From: a virus
IMG/VR virus record: IMGVR_UViG_3300020394_000625
Location: 1-30,809 of that record
Strand: one strand, 5' to 3'
Length of the DNA: 30,809 bases
Position 1 is the stretch's first letter; each line of letters opens with the position of its first letter. Positions 11,550 to 29,132 of the stretch are shown one piece after another. The position numbers and the translations under genes were made by a program. The notes beneath the pieces were generated by a model. The model had not been told where the DNA came from. It ran no database searches and was given only the letters and a program-made list of their open reading frames with translations.

Positions 11550-11577
11550 TTGACAGAATCGAGAATCATGATATAGT
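11550..11577 (+). promoter_or_regulatory. Sigma70-type promoter
   Basis: TTGACA at 11550-11555 and TATAGT at 11572-11577, spacer 16. The -35 context AAAACTTGACAGA is shared with the promoter at 11959, which suggests a common early-promoter element. ATCATGAT, a short palindrome, lies in the spacer just before the -10 box. AAAGAGAGGG follows as ribosome site for the gene at 11606. Confidence 0.75.
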
Positions 11578-11605
11578 AGTTACATAATCAAGAAAGAGAG
11601 GGATT

Positions 11606-11953
11606 ATGACTACATACGCAGATGTTCATCAAGAAGCCAGTTCAAAAGCAACTACGGCTGTTAATACATTTTTTAATAACGTTTTAAAAGGCGAAGACCA
11701 ATATGCATGTGGTTTTGCTTGGGTTACTGTTTATCCTAAAAATAAAGGTAATACTAAACTAGGTAAAGCTGAAAGGGCTGGACTAGAATCTATTGGTTTT
11801 AAGAAAGACTGGACAGGTAAAGGCTGGCAGTTGTGGAATCCTGGAAATTACGCAGGTCAGAATATAGACGCCAAAGAAGAAGGCGCACAAGTTTATGCTA
11901 ATGTAATGAAGTCATACGGATTTAATGCTTATGCAGGGTCTAGGTTAGACTAA
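11606..11953 (+). CDS. Conserved-looking phage protein of unknown function
   Basis: A 115-residue soluble protein with its own promoter and a ribosome site AGAGAGGG six bases before the ATG. The sequence is compact and motif-like: WVTVYPKNKGNTKLGKAERAGL, then WTGKGWQLWNPGNYAGQNID, then the C-terminal NAYAGSRLD. The abundance of aromatic, Gly and Lys residues in the middle suggests a small globular fold, perhaps nucleic-acid or protein binding, but I can assign no family with a known function. There is no signal peptide or membrane segment. It forms a single-gene unit between two near-identical promoters. Confidence 0.8.
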   Translation: MTTYADVHQEASSKATTAVNTFFNNVLKGEDQYACGFAWVTVYPKNKGNTKLGKAERAGLESIGFKKDWTGKGWQLWNPGNYAGQNIDAKEEGAQVYANVMKSYGFNAYAGSRLD

Positions 11954-12845: not shown

Positions 12846-13042
12846 TGATACGAATTTTTAATAGTGCAGTTTTTGAAGATACTGGTGCGGAACGTCTAAT
12901 ACCTTTAAAAGAAGCCGACATCATAGAACAAAAAATAGATGCAAGTGGTCGTCCTTACATATTCTTTGAGCATAAAGATTATCCACTAGGTGGTTTACGT
13001 GCTTGGTATGACGGCAAATATTGGCAATGTGATTTAGATTGA
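12845..13042 (+). CDS. Small protein of unknown function
   Basis: A 65-residue protein starting MIRIFNSAVFEDTG. The ATG at 12845 overlaps the preceding stop by one base and has AGAGGT seven bases upstream; the open frame extends upstream to 12812 but without a ribosome site. It is rich in aromatic residues near the end (YPLGGLRAWYDGKYWQCDLD), typical of a tiny beta-rich domain. No family recognised. Confidence 0.75.
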   Translation: MIRIFNSAVFEDTGAERLIPLKEADIIEQKIDASGRPYIFFEHKDYPLGGLRAWYDGKYWQCDLD

Positions 13043-13053
13043 GAGGTGGAATA

Positions 13054-13296
13054 ATGGCTGTTCGTGAAAAATCTGTTAAAGAACTTGTAATAGACCTTGA
13101 TGGTCCTAACGGAAATGCTTTTTATCTTTTAGGTACGGCTCAACAATTTAGTCGTGACTTAGGATTAGATGGTAATAAAATAATTGAAGAAATGAAGTCT
13201 GGAGATTATATAAATCTTCTCAAGACTTTTGAAAACTACTTTGGTAGTTATGTAACTTTAGAAACTAACAATAAACAATATTTGGAGGCTTTGTGA
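13054..13296 (+). CDS. Small conserved-looking protein of unknown function
   Basis: An 80-residue protein, start at ATG 13054 behind GAGAGGTGG. It contains the motif-like stretch LVIDLDGPNGNAFYLLGTAQ followed by a helical part with LGLDGNKIIEEMKSGDYINLL. It looks like a compact two-part domain in a soluble protein. Its stop overlaps the GTG of the next gene. The ribosome-site region TTGAGAGG (13039-13046) is fully complementary to eight bases in the loop of the small RNA at 28867-28874. Confidence 0.8.
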   Translation: MAVREKSVKELVIDLDGPNGNAFYLLGTAQQFSRDLGLDGNKIIEEMKSGDYINLLKTFENYFGSYVTLETNNKQYLEAL

Positions 13297-25000: not shown

Positions 25001-25602
25001 TGCAGACATACAAAGTATTAATAACAGGAAACAAATATTATGGGCTTTGCAAAGCGATATGCAATATTTTTGATAGTGTGGATTATATTAGTTATCATAC
25101 TGCTAGTAGGAGCAACAATTGGTCTCTAGACCAAGCATCTGAACAAACAAGACTAGCAGATTATTTTGTAGATAATGATTTTGATATATTCATTAATAAT
25201 TCTGCAATATGGAAGTTTCATCAAGTAATGATAGCTGAACAAGTTTATACTAAATGTATTGATAAACAAAAATCTGCACACATTATTAATATAGGTTCTA
25301 CTGCCGATACAGGTGTCAAAGGTAGAACATGGCGATATCCTACAGAAAAGAAAGCATTAAAAGATTATAACAGAGACTTGACTTACATGGCAATAGGTGG
25401 TAGTAATATCAAAACAACATTGATATCTCCTGGTAGTTTGAATACTTCAAGTGTTATGAAAAAACATCCTGATAGAAAGTTAATTGATACAGATTACATA
25501 GCTGAACTTGTTTTATGGTTGATAAAACAACCAACTTATGTTAATATAAATGAAATAAGTTTAGACCCAATACAACTAGGCAAATTCGCAAGAGAGAGGT
25601 AA
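25000..25602 (+). CDS. SDR-like (short-chain dehydrogenase/reductase) protein between gp47 and gp46
   Basis: A 200-residue Rossmann-type protein. SDR landmarks are visible: N-terminal VLITGNKYYGL (residues 6-16, a variant of TGxxxGxG), INNSA at 65-69 in the place of NNAG, IINIGS with Ser100, the active-site Tyr113-x3-Lys117 (YPTEK), and LISPGSLNT with the PG motif at 144-145. The catalytic Ser-Tyr-Lys set is therefore intact, so an NAD(P)-dependent oxidoreductase is likely; the substrate is unknown. It sits inside the recombination module, starting on the last base of gp47 and ending four bases before gp46. The glycine motif is degenerate (Lys and Tyr where small residues are usual), so a non-catalytic nucleotide-binding role is an alternative. 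Confidence 0.7.
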   Translation: MQTYKVLITGNKYYGLCKAICNIFDSVDYISYHTASRSNNWSLDQASEQTRLADYFVDNDFDIFINNSAIWKFHQVMIAEQVYTKCIDKQKSAHIINIGSTADTGVKGRTWRYPTEKKALKDYNRDLTYMAIGGSNIKTTLISPGSLNTSSVMKKHPDRKLIDTDYIAELVLWLIKQPTYVNINEISLDPIQLGKFARER

Positions 25603-25606
25603 TACT

Positions 25607-27388
25607 TTGCTAAAAATAAAAAATATTACGATCCGAAACTTTATGAGTGTAGGAAACGTCACACAGGCAGTTGACCTTGAACGAGATAATTTGACTCTTG
25701 TTTTGGGTAACAACTTAGATTTAGGTGGTGACGGTTCTCGTAATGGTACAGGTAAAACTACTCTTATCAATGCATTGTCTTTTGGTATATATGGTAATGC
25801 ACTTACAAATATCAGAAAAGATAACTTAATTAACAAGACAAATGCAAAGAACATGCTTGTTACGATTGACTTTGAATATAACGGAAGTCAATACAGAATT
25901 GAACGTGGTCGTAGACCAAATGTATTTCGTTTTATCAGAGACGGAATAGATTTAAACGATGGTGCTGATGATGTAGCACAAGGCGAAATGAGACAAACAC
26001 AAGTCGAAGTTGATTCGATTATTGGTATCTCTCATGCAATGTTCAAACACATTGTTGCTCTAAACACATACACAGATCCTTTCTTGAGTATGAGAGCAAA
26101 CGACCAACGTGAATTAATCGAAGAATTATTAGGTATTACTGAATTGTCTCGTAAAGCAGAGGCACTTAAAGAAGTAATCAAAGAAACAAAAGACGAAATC
26201 AAAGAAGAAGAATACAATCTAAAATCAATAGAAGATGCTAATTCACGTATTCTTAAAAACATTACAGACATAGAACGCAGACAACGTATTTGGCAAGACA
26301 AACACGACAAAGAATTAAAAGAATTAGAAGATGCATTGAATTCTTTATCACATGTTGATATCAAACAAGAAATTGCAAATCATCAAACTCTAAACGAATA
26401 TACAGAAAAGAAATCTAAACTAGAAGAAGCACAACGTTGGGTTGATAGTATTTCAGCCGATAACAAAAAGTTTCAAGATTTAGAAACAAGAGTTATAAGT
26501 GATATTGAAAAGATTAAAGACCACAAATGTTTTGCATGTGGTCAAGAAGTACATGATAGTAAACAAGAAGAAATTTTAAGAGAAAAAGAAGACTTGTTGG
26601 GTGAAACTAAATCACATCTAATGGAAAACTACGACAAGTTAGATACACATACAAAAGTAATCGATGAAGTAGGTGAACTAGGTGATAAGCCTACAGTATT
26701 CTACGATAATCTAAATGATGCATACGAACATCAAAACTCAGTTAGTGTATTAAAAGAACAAATCGAAACTAAAAAGAAACAAGAAGATCCTTATACAGAA
26801 CAAATCAAAGAAATGCGTGAAAGCAGTTTAGAAGAATTAGATTATTCTAAAATGAACGCATTACAATCTTATCGTGAACATCAGGACTTCTTGATGAAAC
26901 TGTTAACAAACAAAGACAGTTTTATTCGTAAAAAGATTATTGACCAAAACTTATCATATCTAAATTCACGTTTAGAATTTTATCTTGATAAACTTGGTTT
27001 ACCACATGAAGTAAAATTCATGAGTGATTTAACTGTAGAAATTACAGAATTAGGTCGTGAATTAGACTTTGATAATTTATCTAGAGGTGAACGTAACAGA
27101 CTTATCTTGGGATTAAGTTGGAGTTTCCGTGATATATTTGAATCTCTTTATAGTACAATTAACGTATTATTTGTAGACGAACTTATTGATAGTGGTATGG
27201 ATACAAACGGTGTTGAATCATCACTTGCAGTATTGAAGAAAATGCAACGTGATAGAAGTCGTTCAATATTCTTGATATCACATAGAGATGAATTATATGG
27301 ACGTGTTACTAATGTTCTTAATGTTATAAAAGAAAATGGCTTTACATCATTCTCTAATGAAGACGAAATTATAACTGAAACAACATAA
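25607..27388 (+). CDS. gp46: Recombination endonuclease subunit gp46 (Rad50/SbcC-like ATPase), TTG start
   Basis: A 593-residue SMC-type ATPase. Residues 41-52 (GDGSRNGTGKTT) are the P-loop; FRFIRDG follows as part of the N-terminal ATPase half. Two long coiled-coil arms flank a zinc hook C-F-A-C at 308-311 (HKCFACGQEV). The C-terminal half has the ABC signature LSRGERNRL (~491-499) and Walker B VLFVDEL (~520-526), followed by ISHRDEL. With gp47 it forms the end-resection complex. The only suitable start is TTG at 25607, seven bases after AGAGAGAGG; no ATG lies nearby. Its ribosome-site sequence GAGAGAGGT is fully complementary to nine bases of the small RNA loop at 28874-28882. T4 gp46 is 560 residues. 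Confidence 0.93.
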   Translation: MLKIKNITIRNFMSVGNVTQAVDLERDNLTLVLGNNLDLGGDGSRNGTGKTTLINALSFGIYGNALTNIRKDNLINKTNAKNMLVTIDFEYNGSQYRIERGRRPNVFRFIRDGIDLNDGADDVAQGEMRQTQVEVDSIIGISHAMFKHIVALNTYTDPFLSMRANDQRELIEELLGITELSRKAEALKEVIKETKDEIKEEEYNLKSIEDANSRILKNITDIERRQRIWQDKHDKELKELEDALNSLSHVDIKQEIANHQTLNEYTEKKSKLEEAQRWVDSISADNKKFQDLETRVISDIEKIKDHKCFACGQEVHDSKQEEILREKEDLLGETKSHLMENYDKLDTHTKVIDEVGELGDKPTVFYDNLNDAYEHQNSVSVLKEQIETKKKQEDPYTEQIKEMRESSLEELDYSKMNALQSYREHQDFLMKLLTNKDSFIRKKIIDQNLSYLNSRLEFYLDKLGLPHEVKFMSDLTVEITELGRELDFDNLSRGERNRLILGLSWSFRDIFESLYSTINVLFVDELIDSGMDTNGVESSLAVLKKMQRDRSRSIFLISHRDELYGRVTNVLNVIKENGFTSFSNEDEIITETT

Positions 27389-28811: not shown

Positions 28812-28840
28812 TTGACTTTCCATTCAGTATTTGTTATTAT
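28812..28840 (+). promoter_or_regulatory. Sigma70-type promoter for the candidate small RNA
   Basis: TTGACT at 28812-28817, spacer 17, TATTAT at 28835-28840, with TGT before the -10 box (extended -10). Transcription is expected to start at about 28847, which is the base of the first stem of the RNA. Confidence 0.7.
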
Positions 28841-28846
28841 TAAACT

Positions 28847-28953
28847 ATTAAAGATGTCAAGTGTCTCCTCTCAACCTCTCTCATCTAGCTAGGCATCTTT
28901 AGTATTCTCATACGAGAGCGAGTAATATGCCGGCTTCGGCCGGCATATTTTTT
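28847..28953 (+). ncRNA. Candidate small regulatory RNA with pyrimidine-rich anti-Shine-Dalgarno loop
   Basis: Between the promoter at 28812-28840 and the terminator at 28924-28953 lies a ~107-nt stretch with no open frame. The predicted 5' end falls on a long stem: TAAAGATGTC (28849-28858) pairs with GGCATCTTTA (28892-28901), extended by a few pairs outward, with one or two GU pairs. It encloses a 33-nt loop rich in C and U, containing CTCCTCTCAA and CCTCTCTC. A short hairpin TCTC-ATAC-GAGA follows, then the terminator. The loop is complementary to ribosome sites: TTGAGAGG of the gene at 13054, GAGAGAGGT of gp46, and AGAGGTT of the gene just downstream. This resembles anti-Shine-Dalgarno loops of some alphaproteobacterial trans-acting RNAs. 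It may instead be a 5' leader with an attenuator. Confidence 0.6.
28924..28953 (+). terminator. Strong Rho-independent terminator with TTCG tetraloop
   Basis: The stem AATATGCCGGC (28924-28934) and GCCGGCATATT (28939-28949) closes a TTCG loop, eleven perfect pairs, followed by a run of T to 28953. It is by far the most GC-rich helix in this AT-rich window. It ends the small RNA and separates it from the small genes that follow. Confidence 0.93.
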
Positions 28954-28964
28954 AAGAGGTTCAA

Positions 28965-29132
28965 ATGGATAAAAACGAAAAGAAAAAACTAGAAAAAGCC
29001 GAACTAGAAAAACAGATACAAGAGTATCTTAAAAAAGGTGGCAAGATAGAACAATGTCCTGAAGGTGCTATCACAGATGAAGGACAAATGAACTATAAAT
29101 TTCGTAGAAAGAAAAATCCTAAATCAAAATGA
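28965..29132 (+). CDS. 55-residue basic protein of unknown function
   Basis: A short gene with AAGAGGT five bases upstream of the ATG. The product is highly charged: MDKNEKKKLEKAELEKQIQE at the start, a middle with KIEQCPEGAITDEG, and a Lys/Arg-rich end (KFRRKKNPKSK). The first part looks like a single charged helix. Its stop overlaps the next ATG (ATGA). It lies directly behind the terminator of the small RNA, so its expression needs read-through or an unseen promoter. Confidence 0.65.
   Translation: MDKNEKKKLEKAELEKQIQEYLKKGGKIEQCPEGAITDEGQMNYKFRRKKNPKSK

Follow-up and report, generated by a model that had tools for sequence, protein, structure and literature searches.

Does a giant phage carry the gene for a small RNA (sRNA) that is aimed at ribosome sites and, if so, whose mRNAs would that RNA reach? 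This question is raised by an intergenic element near the end of a 30.8-kb virus record that also encodes a late sigma factor, gp47, and gp46; the whole stretch analyzed, 30,809 nucleotides long, is hereafter called the window. In gp46, the closest match among named phages is to Pseudomonas phage PA5oct and its relatives (50%), followed by Sinorhizobium phage Phosso (47%) and Agrobacterium phage Atu_ph07 (43%); family contigs are up to 342 kb long. We take the probable host to be an alphaproteobacterium, since a permuted tmRNA on the jumbo-phage contig G006 (L220:5334-5725, minus strand; tag ANENFAPVAYALAA) is of the alphaproteobacterial type by score; a host lookup in GTDB genomes via the loop pattern or gp46 gave nothing useful. 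This tmRNA is preceded by a TTGACA...CGAATCGTGTATAAAT promoter. Phage contigs also hold matches to the manA RNA motif (RF01745, listed as cis-regulatory) at L218:2546-2743 (plus strand), L235:14360-14566 (minus), and L240:15833-16038 (minus), which score slightly over the gathering score and lie directly behind a strong sigma70-like promoter.

An sRNA gene with its own promoter and terminator

The promoter, stem, C/U-rich loop, small hairpin, and TTCG terminator that an earlier note on this DNA had described were all found at their places, both in the sequence and in the minimum free energy (MFE) fold. The promoter (28812 to 28840, plus strand) has a −35 TTGACT (28812 to 28817), a 17-nt spacer, and an extended −10 TGnTATTAT, with the TG at 28832 to 28833 and the TATTAT at 28835 to 28840, and its position sets the expected start of the sRNA at about 28846 to 28848, i.e., at the foot of the stem. 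The relatives whose copies were inspected have a TTGAC-type −35 and an AT-rich −10 in the equivalent position. The sRNA gene extends over ~108 nt on the plus strand (28846 to 28953, both ends predicted), and its MFE is −37.2 kcal/mol, compared with −20.3 ± 3.2 kcal/mol in dinucleotide shuffles (z = −5.3, n = 200), none of which folded as well.

In the MFE fold, the loop-closing stem (28846 to 28904) pairs 28846-28858 with 28892-28904 over 13 bp, followed by a 1×1 mismatch and three inner base pairs (28860-28862 with 28888-28890). It closes a C/U-rich loop (28863 to 28887) whose core, GUCUCCUCU-N-AACCUCUC, is nearly invariant; in the predicted folds of the window and of 46 distinct copies, the loop is unpaired. 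The 33 nt previously given for this loop apply in the form without the inner pairs (~31 to 33 nt); with those three pairs formed, the loop measures 25 nt. A second small hairpin of 5 bp (28905 to 28918) is present in the MFE and the centroid fold and takes a CTC...GAG form in several relatives, not in all. The intrinsic terminator (28924 to 28953) folds into an 11-bp stem (28924 to 28949) with a TTCG loop and a T run to 28953, and in relatives a hairpin with a T run occupies this place with a sequence other than that of the window. With its own promoter and its own terminator in an intergenic position, the gene has the layout of an intrinsically terminated trans-acting sRNA.

An RNA family in giant phages

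The loop pattern TGTCTCCTCTNAACCTCTC occurs exactly in 83 IMG/VR viral stretches, and the exact 24-nt loop core AAGTGTCTCCTCTCAACCTCTCTC in 32. Each full-length copy that was inspected lies inside a promoter-stem-loop unit, except at L037, which is an isolated 17-mer match lacking these surroundings. An independent survey, anchored on the neighboring gp46 instead of the loop, covered 80 loci: The sRNA was found on the gp46 strand in 56 of the 61 loci where gp46 identity was at least 68%, at 0.1 to 3.1 kb downstream of gp46 (52 copies measured), and the contigs of the remaining five stop within 761 nt of gp46. It was found in none of the 19 loci with gp46 at 56 to 59% identity, 11 of which have at least 3.4 kb downstream, nor in four larger relatives (gp46 identity 54 to 56%), two of which are contigs of ~342 to 345 kb. 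A 55-nt query did not find the sRNA among INPHARED phages, and the pattern TGTCTCCTCTMAACCTCTCTC had no exact match among 84,980 GTDB species genomes. Rfam 15 gave no match in the window and, in six loci of relatives searched to E 1, none at gathering score. A weak covariance-model match in PA5oct (L163:6752-6783) was dropped, as it spans 32 nt for a 63-position model. The sRNA is a real RNA family that is unlisted in Rfam.

A constant loop on a changing stem

Folding each sequence separately showed the loop closed by a stem in all 46 distinct copies, among which 41 stem sequences differ. In the clade of the window, 6 of 16 stem pairs were altered on both sides, as were 6 of 11 in a second clade (clade 2, loop CCTCTAAACCTC); the covariation score was reached by 0 of 500 shuffles in either clade, with controls that leave sequence kinship partly uncorrected. 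When the pairing partner was slid by one to three columns, pairing fell from above 90% to 36 to 50%. We used clade-wise alignments and per-sequence folding, as RNAalifold gave zero pairs on a mixed alignment, in which the stem arms of different clades are offset. Compensatory stem changes in related genomes, whose absence the earlier note had named as grounds for rejecting its claim, are thus present in both clades.

Per-position conservation gives the opposite picture for the loop, whose core hardly varies, in contrast to the much more variable stem and flanks. What variation the core has falls mostly at the GUCUCCUCU/(A)ACCUCUC junction, in the form of alternative bases (C, A, or U), an inserted CU, or a short deletion, and U/C swaps across clades are essentially absent. 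The pattern is that of a putative fixed seed, or of two joined seeds, displayed on a replaceable scaffold. The clade-2 sRNAs (L123, L124, L080, and others) also have an additional conserved 3′ domain, GGTGGGTTAGACCTTAACGTACCACC and then AAAAAGCACAAAAAGG, which lies ~70 to 150 nt downstream of the loop ahead of the terminator and has no Rfam match.

Ribosome sites complementary to the loop

Three loop-complementary ribosome sites had been pointed out before, and all three exist in the sequence: TTGAGAGG at 13039 to 13046, upstream of an 80-aa open reading frame (ORF) starting at 13054; GAGAGAGGT at 25592 to 25600 (plus strand), ahead of gp46 (25607 to 27388), where it is also coding sequence, at the 3′ end of the preceding gene; and AAGAGGTT in front of the gene that starts at 28965, a possible target site as is that of gp46. 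Among them, the gp46 site alone is widely retained in relatives. It is found as GAGAGAGGT or GAGAGGT in most relatives that bear the sRNA (exceptions are L063-L065, L071, L075, and L079) and is missing from more distant relatives that lack it, so that gp46 may be a further target. The broader proposal, that the RNA tunes purine-rich leaders in general, did not hold: Scored against every translation-initiation region of the two 342-kb relatives G001 and G002, the loop fitted no better than dinucleotide-shuffled loops. Besides the sRNA itself, neither of these two phages contains a full-length complement of the loop. Two individual candidates were judged secondary. One, in G001:4132-4722 (minus strand), has a 13-nt perfect match, AGAGGAGACACTT, of the ribosome site to the other loop half and the stem, ahead of an ORF with a hydrophobic segment at its N-terminus, yet this gene occurs in G001 alone among 24 records; the other, G001:218231, has an 11-nt match upstream, of which AGAGGAGA is kept and the extension is not.

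A more specific class of candidate targets, which the earlier note did not contain, stands out instead: genes with an early-type promoter and an AGAGAGG ribosome site, to which CCUCUCU in the loop is the complement. A promoter listing yielded a class, TTGACA-N(5-8)-CGAATCRTGYTATATT with a short leader behind it, which we call early-type for its sigma70 consensus, unlike the T4-like TAAATA late sites, the timing being presumed. With simple ORF picks serving as gene calls, the top enriched 7-mer in early-type ribosome sites of 11 sRNA-bearing contigs was AGAGAGG (16/49 versus 12/1932, P = 3e-20), a result obtained without the loop as bait, and AAGGAG was not comparably enriched (5/50 versus 131/1932). 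The shorter GAGAGG was found in 17 of 50 early-type genes, 0 of 51 late-promoter genes, and 24 of 1592 other genes, and in 2 of 718 in relatives without the sRNA; counted per gene family, the enrichment was 9/32 versus 16/709 (P = 2e-7). About two thirds of the early-type genes have no GAGAGG.

The window itself holds one such gene, of 115 aa (11606 to 11953), with an early-type promoter from the promoter scan (11550 to 11577, plus strand; TTGACA...GAATCATGATATAGT) and a candidate target site AGAGAGG at 11595 to 11601 (plus strand) that is retained by orthologs in G001, G004, and G007. In five phages, GAGAGG is retained ahead of a gene for a 140-aa LPD29-domain protein even where protein identity drops to 31 to 40%, and homologs of this gene in G062, G063, G064, and G067, which have no sRNA, have AGGAG instead. 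The sRNA-less G062 has a parallel sigma70-type gene set with AAGGAG-type leaders behind a different promoter class (TTGACCARWATTSCCCATTTTGCTATAAT), as if related phages differed in the wiring of the early regulon. Between the −35 and −10 of early-type promoters in G001, G002, G004, G007, G016, and the window (11550 to 11577), we observed a conserved box, CGAATCRTG, a probable regulator-binding site; TAATCA or TAGTCA is frequent in the leaders that follow.

The predicted pairing energy points in the same direction, with a mean of −11.7 kcal/mol between the loop and early-type leaders as against −8.1 kcal/mol for other leaders and −8.5 kcal/mol for an assumed 16S 3′ tail sequence on the early-type leaders. 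On these leaders, 14 of 100 dinucleotide-shuffled loops matched the real one, because a shuffled CU repeat retains CUCUC; among mononucleotide shuffles, 1 of 100 did. The clade-2 contigs examined have almost no GAGAGG leaders while retaining the sRNA. G042, which has GAGAGG leaders, was left out, as its link to clade 2 was not established. We found no compensatory change between loop and leader, and the early leaders may have inherited their ribosome site together with the promoter from a common ancestor.

Alternative explanations

The layout of promoter, conserved loop, and terminator could also be that of a cis-acting leader, i.e., an attenuator of the downstream gene, and in the window and its close relatives the next gene does begin directly behind the terminator, and no promoter is visible between them. 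In the window, this gene (28965 to 29132, plus strand) encodes a 55-aa protein similar to the SutA RNA polymerase-binding domain (Pfam PF20661, E 1e-8), and a similar small protein follows the sRNA in many relatives. In clade 2 and at L067, however, the sRNA is followed by different genes with promoters of their own, while the loop is identical, and neither the MFE nor the centroid fold contains an alternative pairing of loop and terminator; we regard attenuation as improbable. As the downstream gene varies between clades and the loop stays constant, so that the sRNA is not bound to a single neighboring gene, the comparison speaks for a trans-acting sRNA and supports the discrete, trans-type phage RNA of the earlier note. 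The PF20661 protein, for its part, might serve the phage as a regulator of RNA polymerase. Coding can be set aside with greater assurance: The element had been described as free of ORFs, but a 12-codon ORF, MSSVSSQPLSSS, spans the loop in the window (28854 to 28892). Relatives disrupt it (ATG-TGA at L015, no ATG at L010), and the synonymous variation expected of a reading frame is not seen in the loop core across relatives, which leaves a short-peptide gene with hardly any likelihood.

The remaining alternatives concern what the loop binds. Proteins such as Rho or cold-shock proteins bind long unpaired pyrimidine-rich RNA, and the loop, a stretch of just this kind, might be a site for a host or phage protein, e.g., a decoy, instead of a pairing seed. 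Such proteins tolerate U/C swaps, however, of which the core has essentially none, and protein binding would leave the AGAGAGG sites of early-type leaders unexplained; we consider it rather improbable. A somewhat less unlikely alternative, if still one that we doubt, is that the sRNA acts mainly on host mRNAs, like the host anti-SD (anti-Shine-Dalgarno) sRNAs AbcR, NfeR1, and alphaR8, or sequesters a host sponge RNA, in which case the match to early leaders would be secondary or a by-product of shared descent. The probable host belongs to a group that has such sRNAs, and pairing over 7 to 9 nt leaves a 20-nt invariant core unexplained, which is constrained beyond the need of the phage targets found. 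A core of this length points to additional partners, which may include host mRNAs, as with AbcR1/2 (PMC8844928) and SisA-D (PMC12559287). Action on the host alone would nevertheless not explain why AGAGAGG marks one phage promoter class, and does so only in phages that bear the sRNA.

Discussion

We propose, at what we judge to be even odds, that the element encodes a trans-acting phage sRNA of ~108 nt that pairs with the AGAGAGG sites of some early-type genes and lowers their translation. A strong host-type promoter would drive the sRNA and its own terminator would end it; the variable stem would display the fixed C/U-rich loop, whose CCUCUCU would pair with exposed AGAGAGG ribosome sites in part of the early-type genes and compete there with binding of the 30S subunit, such that early-gene translation would fall as infection proceeds, with gp46 and host mRNAs perhaps paired too. 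In this way, a group of early-type genes of the phage itself would probably be turned down during infection. More tentatively, and with some reserve on our side, the sRNA and a phage-wide AGAGAGG dialect of ribosome sites, used chiefly by early-type genes, may have co-evolved as a dedicated translational off-switch, which would silence part of the early class together by RNA while genes with AAGGAG continue. Such a switch would be a concrete answer to how a jumbo phage might stop early expression while early mRNAs persist. If the match to early genes is causal, it would give a phage a simple means of tagging a group of its mRNAs to be treated alike. Independently of its action, the sRNA family, absent from Rfam, is widespread in uncultured marine giant phages and deeply conserved in one lineage.

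We did not find this RNA family, its place in jumbo phages, or the match to one phage promoter class in the open-access literature; the mode of action, that of an anti-SD sRNA, would be of a known kind. Phage-derived sRNAs that act on phage and/or host mRNAs include VpdS and OOP RNA (PMC12197685), and the examples considered from that review come mostly from temperate phages, include antisense RNAs, and feature no anti-SD loop matched to a jumbo-phage early-gene class. The nearest parallels are bacterial. AbcR1 and AbcR2 of alpha-rhizobia (~115 to 120 nt) are Hfq-bound intergenic sRNAs with the motifs CUCCUCCC and UUCCCCUC that repress host transport and metabolism mRNAs at the ribosome site (PMC8844928); the phage RNA resembles them in size, intergenic location, and predicted ribosome-site action, but differs in that a single loop, of another and nearly invariant sequence, contains both C/U motifs. 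NfeR1 of Sinorhizobium meliloti (115 nt) carries repeated anti-SD motifs that are redundant in translation inhibition (PMC8844928) and is thus similar in size and motifs, differing in that its three motifs are identical and that it is a stress-induced bacterial RNA. The alphaR8 sRNAs SisA-D of Caulobacter, which are bound by the sponge CrfA (PMC12559287), share a conserved single-stranded C/U-rich 10-mer with an anti-SD signature and repress many targets, yet their UUUCCUCCCU lies downstream of a weak hairpin and they are bacterial and CrfA-controlled. For a comparison with Hfq-dependent sRNAs, the phage RNA offers the U run at its terminator end. An Rfam search and the exact TGTCTCCTCTMAACCTCTCTC pattern in GTDB revealed no homology to the AbcR, NfeR1, or alphaR8 families, and we do not assign the RNA to any of them. 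It does have an unpaired C/U-rich motif complementary to ribosome sites, those of the early-type genes in which AGAGAGG is enriched, and the resemblance to alphaproteobacterial anti-SD sRNAs that had been noticed at the outset holds: By analogy, the phage sRNA probably works as they do.
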